From Sphingomonadaceae bacterium (lineage in GTDB: Bacteria; Pseudomonadota; Alphaproteobacteria; Sphingomonadales; Sphingomonadaceae), in NCBI GenBank assembly GCA_947473355.1, contig CANJCQ010000005.1:1-64000 (forward strand): DNA of 64,000 bases. Direction: 5' to 3'. Position 1 is the stretch's first letter. The number at the start of each line of letters is the position of its first letter. Of this stretch, positions 36,281 through 60,825 are shown piece by piece. Both the position numbers and the translations under genes were made by a program. The notes below the pieces were generated by a model that was not told the DNA's origin, searched no databases, and was given only the letters and a program-made list of their open reading frames with translations.

Positions 36281-36691
36281 ATGCGCGATCATACCACCAA
36301 AGCCTTGCGGTCTGCGCGTCGCTTCAGGCGGGAAATGTCGCTCCCTGAAGTGCTGCTCTGGCAGTCGCTTCGCCAGCGGCCGCTGGGCGTCAAATTCCGC
36401 CGCCAGCATCCCATCGGATCGTTCGTTGCTGACTTCTTCTGTGCCGAGGCCAATGTTGTGATCGAGATCGATGGCATAGCGCATGGCATGGGTTCCCGGC
36501 CCGAGCGCGACGAAATTCGCGACGACTGGCTTATGCAATGCGGCAAGCAGGTGGTTCGCATTCCGGCGACCGAAGTCTTGAGTGATGTCCAATCGGTGGC
36601 TGAGTCACTGGTGAACTTGTGCTTGGCCGCGCCCCCTCCGTCAGGTGCTTCGCACCTGCCACCTCCCCCGGCGGGGGAGGATTTCGCATGA
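36281..36691 (+). CDS. DUF559 (Vsr-like) endonuclease-domain protein with REP-encoded C-terminus
   Basis: [54 protein letters not shown]; tail [22 protein letters not shown] encoded by the flanking REP. Confidence 0.9.
36631..36683. repeat. REP element right of / overlapping the DUF559 3' end
   Basis: gccccctccgtcaggtgcttcgcacctgccacctcccccggcgggggaggattt. Confidence 0.88.
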
Positions 36692-37848
36692 CTCGCTCTC
36701 CCTTCGCGTCTGACCCCGCCTTGTCGCGCGGGCGCGAATTTCCGCTTGAAGGGGCCATCGCGCGGGGGCCGCGCAGTGCCTATCAGCGCGATCGCGATCG
36801 CATCATTCATTCGATCGCCTTCCGCCGCCTGCGCCACAAGACCCAGGTGTTCATCGCGCCCGATGGCGATCACTACCGGGTCCGCCTGACGCACAGCCTT
36901 GAAGTCGCCCAGATCGCCCGGGTCATTGCTCGTGCGCTCGGGCTTGATGAAGACCTGACCGAGGCACTGGCGCTGGCGCACGATCTGGGCCATCCGCCCT
37001 TTGGGCATGCCGGCGAGGATGCGCTGGGGGCCGCGCTGCACGGTGCTGGCGGCTTCGATCACAATGCCCATTGCCTGCGCGTGCTGATGAGGCTCGAATC
37101 GCCCTATTGCGAGCATGACGGGCTCAATCTCTCGTGGGAAATGCTGGAGGGACTGGCCAAGCATAACGGGCCGGTTTCATCGCCCGGCTGGGCCTTGGCG
37201 GAGCTTGATGCCGCTTATTCGCTTGACCTGAACATCTGGCCCTCGCTCGAAGCCCAGGTTGCGGCGATTGCCGACGACATCGCCTATGACAACCACGACA
37301 TCGACGACGGCCTGCGCGCCGGGTTCCTGTCAGTGGACGAGCTGCTGGCCCAGCCTTTCGTCGCGGACGAATGGCGCAAGGTCGAAAAGCGCTTTCCCGG
37401 CGCGCCGCTGGCCCGGCAACTCAGCGAACTGGTGCGCAGCCAGATCGGGCTTATGGTCAACGATGTTCTGGCCGAGACCAACCGGCGCACAGCAGGCATG
37501 GGCTCTGTCCAGGACATTCGCCTTGCCGCGGGCCCCAGTGCCGGGTTTTCGGCCGAGCTGGCGGAGGAAGAGCGGGGGCTCAAGCGCTTCATGTATGAAA
37601 AGCTCTATTATCACCCCGAACAGCTTGCCACGGCGACGCGGGCAAGAACGGTCATTGCCGAACTATACGCGGCCTATGCCCAGGAGCCGGGGCTGATGGA
37701 CGAGAGCTGGCATGCCCGCTTGCCCGAGCTTCAGCCCGAGCGGGCCCGTCACATTGCTGACTACATCGCCGGGATGACTGATCGCTATGCCATCCGCTGT
37801 CACGCGGCGATCTATGGCCGCACCCCGGAAGGGCTGCGGAATGTTTGA
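36688..37848 (+). CDS. dgt: Deoxyguanosinetriphosphate triphosphohydrolase-like protein
   Basis: [22 protein letters not shown]...[14 protein letters not shown]...[20 protein letters not shown] motif; ATGA overlap with DUF559. Confidence 0.93.
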
Positions 37849-37920
37849 GGTCACCGGGGGATAAGTCGCCAAATTGCTTTGACTCGAAGCGGCCATACCC
37901 GCCATCCCATGCTTGTCGCT

Positions 37921-38108
37921 GACAGCGCGGGAGAGTCCCACTGATTTTCAAATTACGGTGACAGTTAACTTAATTCATTGAAGTGCCAGTGGCTACTGCC
38001 TCAGTCGATGCGGAATTAAGTAAACTGTCACCGTAATTTTCCCGCCGAAGGGGTAACCCTGAACTTGTTTCAGGGGAAAGCTCTCAGGTTTCCGGGACAG
38101 AGGGGGCG
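37921..38108 (+). promoter_or_regulatory. Glycine riboswitch (gcvT element), variant with repeat-expanded P2 and P3
   Basis: 5' core GGGAGAG 37929-37935; CGCCGAAGGGGTAA from 38043; CTCTCAGG 38081-38088; GGGACAGAGGGGG 38094-38105. All lie just upstream of gcvT. Confidence 0.85.
37950..38039. repeat. Inverted repeat AAATTACGGTGACAGTT(A/T)ACTTAATTC (27-bp arms, one mismatch)
   Basis: Arms at 37950-37976 and 38013-38039. Confidence 0.95.
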
Positions 38109-38136
38109 CCGATAGTGGTGCATTCTGTGCGGAGCC

Positions 38137-39801: not shown

Positions 39802-41160
39802 TTGCGCTATCTTCCCCTGACCCCATCTGATCGCTCGGCCATGCTCGCCACTATCGGCGCGGGCTCGCTCGACGATCTCTTCGTCGATGTGCCCGCCGAA
39901 GCGCGGCTGGCGGGACTGGTTCCCGGTCTGCCGCTCCACGCCAGCGAAATGGCAGTCGATCGCCACATGTCGGCTCTGGCAGCGAAAAATGTCGATGCGG
40001 GATCAGTGCCCTTCTTCCTCGGTGCTGGGGCCTATCGCCATCATGTCCCGGCCTCGGTCGATCACCTGATCCAGCGCGGCGAATTCCTCACAAGCTACAC
40101 CCCCTATCAGCCCGAAATCGCGCAAGGCACATTGCAGGTGCTGTTCGAGTTCCAGACCCAGGTCGCGCGCCTGTTCGGCACCGATATCGCCAATGCCTCG
40201 ATGTATGATGGCTCGACTGCCTGCTGGGAGGCTGTCGCCATGGCGGGCCGCGTGACCAAGCGGAGCCGCGCGGTGCTGTGCCGCGGGCTGCATCCGCATT
40301 ATGTCGCCACGATCCGCACAATGGCGCAGTTTACAGGCGACACGGTCGATTGCCGCAATCCTCGGCTGGAACCCTTGCCTGATATCGCCGGAGTGATCGA
40401 TGCGATCGACGGCGAGACCTCATGTGTTGTCGTGCAATACCCGGACATTCTCGGCCGAGTCACCGATCTCGCCCCGATCGCCGGGGCGGCGCACGCTATG
40501 GGCGCGCTGCTGATTGTCGTGGTGACCGAGCCGGTTGCACTCGGCATGCTCGAAGCCCCCGGAAACCTCGGCGCGGACATAGTTGTCGGCGAGGGACAAT
40601 CGCTCGGCGTCGGGCTTCAGTTCGGCGGGCCTTACCTTGGCCTGTTCGGTTGCAACGAGAAATTTGTGCGCCAGATGCCGGGGCGGCTGTGCGGTGAGAC
40701 TGTCGATGCCGATGGCAAGCGCGGCTTCGTGCTGACGCTGTCCACCCGCGAGCAGCATATCCGCCGCGAGAAGGCGACGAGCAACATCTGCACCAATTCG
40801 GGGCTCTGCGCGCTGGCATTCAGCATCCATATGACCCTGCTTGGCGGCGAGGGGCTGGCGCGGCTGGCGCGGCTCAATCATGCGCGGGCACAGGCGGCGG
40901 CGGCGCGGCTTGCGCAGGTTCCGGGGGTCCGGGTGCTCAACGAGACGTTCTTCAACGAGTTCACGCTGGTCCTGCCGCGCGATGCCGGCGCGGTGGTTGA
41001 AAAGCTGGCCGAGCGCTATGTGCTGGGCGGGGTGCCGCTGGCCCGGCTCTATCCGGGGGTGAGTGAGCTGGGCACCGGTTTGCTGGTGACGGCAACCGAG
41101 ACCACCAGCCTTGAGGACATCGAGGCCCTGGCCATAGCGCTGCAGGAGGTGCTGGCATGA
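39802..41160 (+). CDS. gcvPA: Glycine dehydrogenase (decarboxylating) subunit 1
   Basis: [49 protein letters not shown]. Confidence 0.96.
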
Positions 41161-42740
41161 GCGCGGTCAACCCTTCAGGCTGGCGGCCCAAGCAAGGCGC
41201 CGCTGCGCCCGGCCAGCCATCCGAAACGGCCAGCGGCGATCGCGGATTGTCACTGGAAGAGCCGCTGATTTTCGAACTGGCCGCACCGGGCGACTTCGGT
41301 GCCAAATGCGGCGTCGATTTCGATGAGCCGGACACGGACCCATCGCCCTCGCTCGCCCGCTTCCTGCGCAAGGCACCGCCTGCGCTCCCCGGCCTGACCG
41401 AGCCCGAGACCGTGCGGCATTACACCCGCCTTTCGCGTCAGAACTATGCCATCGATCTGGGGCCATTTCCGCTCGGCTCATGCACGATGAAGCACAACCC
41501 GCGGCTCAACGAAAAAATGGCGCGGCTGCCGGGCTTTGCCGATATCCACCCGCTCCAGCCGCATGCCACGGTGCGCGGGGCCTATGAGGCTATGGCGCAG
41601 CTTGCTGATTGGCTGACAAGGCTCACCGGCATGGCGACAGTGGCGCTGACGCCCAAGGCAGGCGCGCATGGCGAGCTGTGCGGGCTGCTCTGCATACGTG
41701 CGGCGCAGGTCGCCAAGGGCGATGCCCGCTCGGTCGTGCTGGTGCCCGAAAGTGCGCATGGTACCAATCCCGCCACGGCTGCTTTCGCAGGCTACCGGGT
41801 TGAGAATATCCCCGCCACTGCCGATGGCCGGGTCGATCTGGCTGCGCTGAAAGCGCGGCTGGGGCCGGATGTGGCAGGGGTGATGATCACCAATCCCAAC
41901 ACTTGCGGTCTGTTTGAGCGCGAGATGAAGGCGATTTCTGACGCGGTTCATGCTGCGGGCGGCTATGTCTATTGCGACGGGGCCAATTTCAACGCGATTG
42001 TCGGCAAGGTGCGCCCGGGCGATCTGGGTATTGATGCCATGCACATCAACCTGCACAAGACCTTCTCCACCCCGCATGGTGGCGGCGGGCCGGGTTCGGG
42101 GCCGGTGGTGCTCTCGGCGGCGCTCGCTCCGTTTGCGCCGCTGCCTTTCGTCACCCGGCAGGCCGATGGTTCGGTGCGGCTGATCGAGGAGGCTGATGCC
42201 CCCGCCGATCATCCGCAGACATTCGGAAGAATGTGCGCTTTCCATGGCCAGATGGGCATGTACACCCGCGCGCTGACCTATATCCTCAGCCACGGCGCCG
42301 ATGGCCTGCGGCAGGTCGCCGAAGATGCGGTGCTCAATGCCAATTATGTCCTGCGCAGTCTGGACGATGTGCTCGATGCGCCGTTCGCGGCGTCAGGCCC
42401 CTGCATGCACGAGGCGCTGTTCAGCGATGCGGGCCTCGCCGAGGGCTTCACCACGCTCGACATTGCCAAGGGGCTGATTGACGAGGGCTTCCACCCGATG
42501 ACGGTCTATTTCCCGCTGGTGGTCCACGGCGCAATGCTGGTCGAGCCGACCGAGACCGAGAGCAAGGCCGGGCTGGATCGTTTCATCGCCTCGATGCGCA
42601 GCCTCGCCGCGCGGGCAAAGACCGGGGACGAGCTGCTCAAGTCAGCGCCGCACTTCGCGCCGAGGCGGCGTTTGGATGAGACTCAAGCGGCGCGCAGGCC
42701 GGTGCTGGCGTGGCGGGGCGATGTGGCTGCTAGTGATTGA
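41157..42740 (+). CDS. gcvPB: Glycine dehydrogenase (decarboxylating) subunit 2
   Basis: [48 protein letters not shown] motif. Confidence 0.96.
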
Positions 42741-60686: not shown

Positions 60687-60825
60687 CGTCACCCTGAACT
60701 TGTTTCAGGGTCCATCAAGTCTCAAACGTGGTGCTATCCGCTAAGGATCAAGCCCCTCGGTTTGCTTGCAAATGCGCGCTCCGTTCGTGCTGATAAATTG
60801 ACCCTGAAACAAGTTCAGGGTGACG
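60687..60825. repeat. REP-type inverted repeat CGTCACCCTGAACTTGTTTCAGGGT / ACCCTGAAACAAGTTCAGGGTGACG
   Basis: Arms at 60687-60711 and 60801-60825, essentially perfect. Confidence 0.93.

Follow-up and report, generated by a model that had tools for sequence, protein, structure and literature searches.

The gcvT leader in the window analysed here (the whole 64,000-nucleotide stretch of a Sphingomonadaceae genome) is very probably a broken tandem glycine riboswitch, which a REPIN entered, from which the middle was lost and whose remaining halves were fused, leaving a switch that is probably dead. In the proposed sequence of events the P2 region of an ancestral tandem riboswitch would have received a REPIN, the kind of paired REP that a RAYT transposase moves, and everything between the P2 loop of aptamer 1 and the P2 stem of aptamer 2 would have been lost either with the insertion or by recombination between REPINs residing in both P2 loops, insertion presumably preceding or accompanying the deletion. 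The platform hairpin would then stay without its P1 competitor and the leader would be locked in the ligand-free fold.

Two aptamer halves in the gcvT leader

The initial annotation described one glycine aptamer in front of gcvT, with a core kept intact across repeats inserted in P2 and P3. This is a gcvT glycine-riboswitch locus, and the motifs lie where they had been placed (GGGAGAG at 37929, CGCCGAAGGGGTAA at 38043, CTCTCAGG at 38081 and GGGACAGAGGGGG at 38094). The dgt-like gene is the neighbour of gcvT in relatives too, as judged from DNA matches to the gene end in many genomes of the genus, and TTGAC[TA] occurs at about the same distance from GGGAGAG in 115 of 124 relatives. Named matches of the GcvT protein put the group in or near Novosphingobium.

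Table 1. Features of the gcvT leader and the adjoining genes in the window
Feature	Position	Strand	Basis
Upstream gene, HD-domain dNTPase (dgt-like)	36619..37848	+	Pfam HD, HD_assoc
TTGACT, putative -35 element of the gcv promoter	37879..37884	+	Modal distance from GGGAGAG
Aptamer 1 remnant	37915..37946	+	PWM; GATTCG loop motif
REPIN, replacing both P2 loops and all between	37950..38039	+	Inverted repeat, family copies, RAYT gene
Aptamer 2 remnant: P2 3' edge, P3, J3/1, P1 3' strand	38041..38106	+	PWM; DNA match
P3b stem-loop, palindrome of the genome's CGTC-type REP	38056..38075	+	Genomic copies
Predicted expression-platform hairpin ACAGAG...TTCTGT	38097..38128	+	Single-sequence folds
gcvT, intact, 380 aa	38137..39279	+	Pfam GCV_T, GCV_T_C
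gcvH, between gcvT and gcvPA/gcvPB	frame ending 39661		
gcvPA and gcvPB, open frames in the same operon as gcvT	39802..42740	+	Named by sequence content, not family search

PWMs built from 124 different tandem leaders in the genus divide the pieces of the window's leader between the two aptamers with margins of 15-63 bits. The 18 nt up to GGGAGAG score +29.7 bits as aptamer 1 and -33.5 as aptamer 2, while the P3 entry (22.7 versus 7.9 bits) and the 28 nt from CTCTCAGG (+45.1 versus -13.0 bits) both score higher as aptamer 2, and the P3 core GCCGAAGG...CTCTCAGG is present and also scores as aptamer 2. By its sequence the leader is a chimera of an aptamer 1 half on the 5' side and an aptamer 2 half on the 3' side. 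The core is thus not one that was kept across the inserts: its ends come from two aptamers and P1 is unpaired. About 110 nt of riboswitch sequence have been lost, since the distance from GGGAGAG to GCCGAAGG of aptamer 2 has a median of 131 nt in relatives and measures 108 nt in the window, 90 of them belonging to the REPIN.

The remnant of aptamer 1 comprises the kink-turn leader strand GTCGCTGAC, the P1 5' strand, the GGGAGAG core and the P2 5' strand up to the GATT(CG) loop. The first junction falls in this loop, where the conserved GATTCG (107 of 124 relatives) reads GATT followed across the junction by TTC. The second falls at the base of the P2 stem of aptamer 2, and the DNA match to relatives starts at 38042, inside their aptamer 2. 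A crossover at GCCGAAGG could have come first, giving a chimeric singleton that later received the REPIN in its P2; the motif is common to both aptamers and such an exchange would leave the halves in the same order. We regard this route as unlikely, as it predicts the P2 3' strand of aptamer 1 (GGC/GAC) beside GCCGAAGG, where the window has CCC, which is closer to aptamer 2 (GGCC), and as a search of 401 genomes of the order for a REPIN-free chimera (GGGAGAG, 8-38 nt, GCCGAMGGKGTAA) returned none.

Neither the window nor its genome (G000) has a match to the Rfam glycine model (RF00504) at or above the gathering cutoff of 32 bits; the best score in the window is 28.4 bits. This alignment takes its 5' strand from within the REPIN loop (37994) and leaves GGGAGAG at 37929 unused, so that the core was not aligned across the inserts, an outcome that the initial annotation had set beforehand as its own refutation. 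The annotation was right that the window holds one aptamer candidate, which is, however, below the cutoff and has end pieces from two different aptamers. Matches of the inverted repeat to microRNA families of Rfam were dismissed as hairpin noise.

Tandem architecture is the rule among the relatives. A glycine riboswitch above the cutoff, nearly always as two adjacent aptamers, was found in 57 of 61 genomes, a set made up of G000 and 60 relatives, and tandem aptamers occur in 147 of the 155 genus genomes that are at least 90% complete. The eight exceptions are G000; G099 and G012, in which the contig breaks off within aptamer 2 and within gcvT, respectively; and five genomes without a close GcvT. 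G000 is therefore the sole genome of the 155 in which gcvT has an assembled leader lacking the tandem pair. The five (G003, G142, G202, G205 and G207) carry distant GcvT-like domains only and have no glycine riboswitch, which suggests that gcvT was lost together with its riboswitch.

The deletion is seen in one draft assembly, from one genome of the species, and an assembler could have collapsed a tandem riboswitch carrying a REPIN; short-read assemblers are troubled by long hairpins and near-repeats, and some of the other arm copies lie near contig ends. Such an artefact is nevertheless very unlikely. The exact arm occurs once in the assembly, which leaves no second identical copy for a mis-join, the order dgt-leader-gcvT is that of the relatives, and aptamers 1 and 2 differ too much to have been simply collapsed into one.

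The REPIN at P2 and the palindrome at P3b

The inverted repeat reported at the P2 position was confirmed: its 27-nt arms (37950-37976 and 38013-38039) are 96% complementary and stand in inverted orientation around a 36-nt spacer, the arrangement of a REPIN doublet. It is not a chance palindrome, because the arm has seven matches with at most three mismatches in the 4.05-Mb genome and its reversed control none. The paired form of this arm was found at this site only among 301 genomes of the family. Divergent copies form an inverted arm pair directly upstream of a Y1 transposase (Y1_Tnp) gene of the RAYT type at locus L036, and G081 and G171 also carry doublets of this family. Both dispersed copies and a RAYT gene beside related copies were found, and the proposal that a mobile palindrome occupies the P2 position holds, the element being a REPIN with a RAYT gene in the same genome.

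The REPIN loops of G081 end in TCGATG-GAATTAAG and that of the window ends nearly alike in TCGATGCGGAATTAAG; the 36-nt loop hence most likely belongs to the element and is not leftover linker. A derivation from the linker (GTCGATAGCG) or from P2 (CAGTGG) was considered and rejected as the main reading in view of the same G081 loops. The leader and the dgt end of G081 are very similar to those of the window even though the gcvT tree separates the two, G081 being placed elsewhere and the window without firm support.

The tip of P3b was correctly described as equal to a genomic REP hairpin, and all 20 nt of this segment (38056-38075) match the repeat at 60691. The 17-nt core of the palindrome has 57 copies in the genome and none for the control. 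The consensus of the REP in G000 is CGTCA[C/T]CCTGAACTTGTTTCAGG[G/A][T/C]CCAT, and a CGTC tag with a CCA tail is the form described for REPs of alphaproteobacteria (PMC3733652). At P3b the palindrome stands by itself, flush with the riboswitch core, so the claim of a REP at P3 holds for the palindrome but not for the tag and tail, which are absent. Repeats of the CGTC type, described as having no dedicated transposase (PMC3733652), often form REPIN-like inverted pairs 110-111 bp apart, as at 60691-60819 in the window and at many of the 57 sites.

The same tip is found in G081 and G004 and variants of it in G079, G146 and G170, five relatives in all. REP-like palindromes accordingly form the P3b tip of aptamer 2 in six species (L263, L069, L283, L290, L296 and the window). 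G103, a near sister of G004 (gcvT branches of 0.004 and 0.024), carries a P3b of unrelated sequence, and five changes of the P3b label are needed on the tree, four of them on firmly supported branches; exchange of P3b tips with REP palindromes, in either direction, therefore seems to have gone on separately from the P2 event.

A tolerated insertion was found in G146 (L290), where a second REPIN family with arms AAAACGGGGACACTATACTTAATTC lies inside P2 of aptamer 2. Both aptamers score above the cutoff (64.0 and 37.7 bits), Rfam aligns across the 113-nt P2 that holds the REPIN, and by inspection the P2 strands on either side of it, GGTGGC/GCCGCC, retain the ability to pair. Among 196 genus genomes scanned, a REPIN in P2 was found in G146 and the window only. 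G146 has the architecture that had been imagined for the window.

A working single aptamer in the window, with P2 and P3 tips lengthened by REPs and an unharmed core, appears highly improbable. Its core motifs are all present in order, and relatives tolerate REP hairpins at P3 (several species) and at P2 (G146). The halves nevertheless derive from different aptamers, P1 is reduced to one contiguous pair, the P2 base is unpaired, and the Rfam alignment is both below the cutoff and anchored inside the REPIN.

Pairing of P1, the kink-turn and the expression platform

Contiguous P1 pairs beside the core average 6.7 in native aptamer 1 and number five in native aptamer 2 of 131 of 137 leaders. In the window CAGCGCGG and CAGAGGGG give one contiguous pair (natives 5-7), and a fusion of the same type from any of the 137 leaders would also give one; P1 cannot form because its strands derive from different aptamers. 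On these letters P1 pairing is lost, and the P2 base, UCCC against UCCC, is unpaired. The leader strand of the kink-turn is retained and its linker partner deleted, so the window has neither the two aptamers nor the leader-linker kink-turn of a tandem riboswitch. In the tandem riboswitch of B. subtilis, mutation of the kink-turn abolished regulation (PMC5666159).

Folding probability of P1 was dropped as proof of inactivity. In ligand-free folds of native leaders the P1 of aptamer 2 has a probability of about 0.01, so this measure does not separate dead from live switches; the pairing potential of P1, as read from its strands, does separate them.

The hairpin ACAGAG...TTCTGT, directly before the Shine-Dalgarno-like CGGAG, is kept in the window. 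It is predicted identically in the window and in G103, and its motif is common to 74 of 104 leaders, the window included. RNAalifold gave no consensus structure for this region, so that the platform hairpin rests on the single-sequence folds and the shared motif. In the relatives the modelled hairpin could compete with P1 of aptamer 2 for CAGAG; the competitor strand CTCTG is absent in the window. Including the Shine-Dalgarno site, the segment at 38097-38134, a potential competitor of aptamer 2 P1, is likely the translational expression platform in the genus.

The lost P1, the lost linker strand of the kink-turn and the retained platform hairpin together suggest that the gcv operon would be expressed without glycine control. 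The glycine response has most likely disappeared, and with the promoter and the gcv frames kept, transcription presumably continues free of that control. P3 and J3/1 of aptamer 2 are well conserved (45.1 bits against a mean of 53.5), which could mean that the event is recent or that some function persists. The chimera might be a singleton that still works through a rearranged fold, in which P3 and J3/1 of aptamer 2 bind glycine while the REPIN helix assists; the platform is conserved as well, and singletons formed by deletion of the middle were mentioned as possible by Crum et al. (PMC6944388). We consider this quite improbable, given that P1 and a kink-turn partner are missing, that B. subtilis requires the kink-turn and that no ghost aptamer is seen. 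There is equally little likelihood that the fused halves still sense glycine with the REPIN helix replacing P2 or the missing aptamer, which would make the leader a new kind of singleton arising in one step.

Comparison with known systems

Glycine riboswitches, REPINs and REPs are already known. Full-text searches of open-licence papers listed no title or abstract describing the insertion of a REP or REPIN into a riboswitch. How tandem glycine riboswitches turn into singletons or are lost is addressed here by a mappable middle deletion with a mobile hairpin at its junction, in a genus where every other assembled leader examined is tandem. G146 and the window also make up a testable pair, a tolerated and a destructive REPIN insertion.

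The window shares with the tandem gcvT glycine riboswitch (RF00504) the gene context, the promoter position, the platform hairpin and the motifs GGGAGAG, GCCGAAGG, CTCTCAGG and GACAGAGG. It differs in lacking the 3' half of aptamer 1, the linker and the 5' half of aptamer 2, in scoring below the Rfam cutoff and in a P1 and a kink-turn that cannot form.

The mobile element in the window fits the definition of REPINs (Bertels and Rainey, 2011, PMC3116915), being an inverted REP doublet that forms a long hairpin and belonging to a family accompanied in its genome by a Y1 transposase gene; unlike those RAYT-associated REPs, its family has a low copy number and the element sits inside a riboswitch and not in plain intergenic space. 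The P3b palindrome is identical to that of the genome's CGTC...CCA repeats and so resembles the CGTC-tagged REPs of alphaproteobacteria (PMC3733652), from which it differs in having neither tag nor tail.

Ghost-aptamer singletons keep one whole aptamer and a ghost stem (Crum et al., 2019, PMC6944388). The leader in the window too is a tandem minus one aptamer's worth of sequence, but in it both aptamers are halved. The published model favours the gradual decay of one aptamer, and a "middle deletion" route to singletons was named but judged unlikely (Crum et al., 2019, PMC6944388); the chimera in the window matches this middle deletion, though probably as a dead switch.
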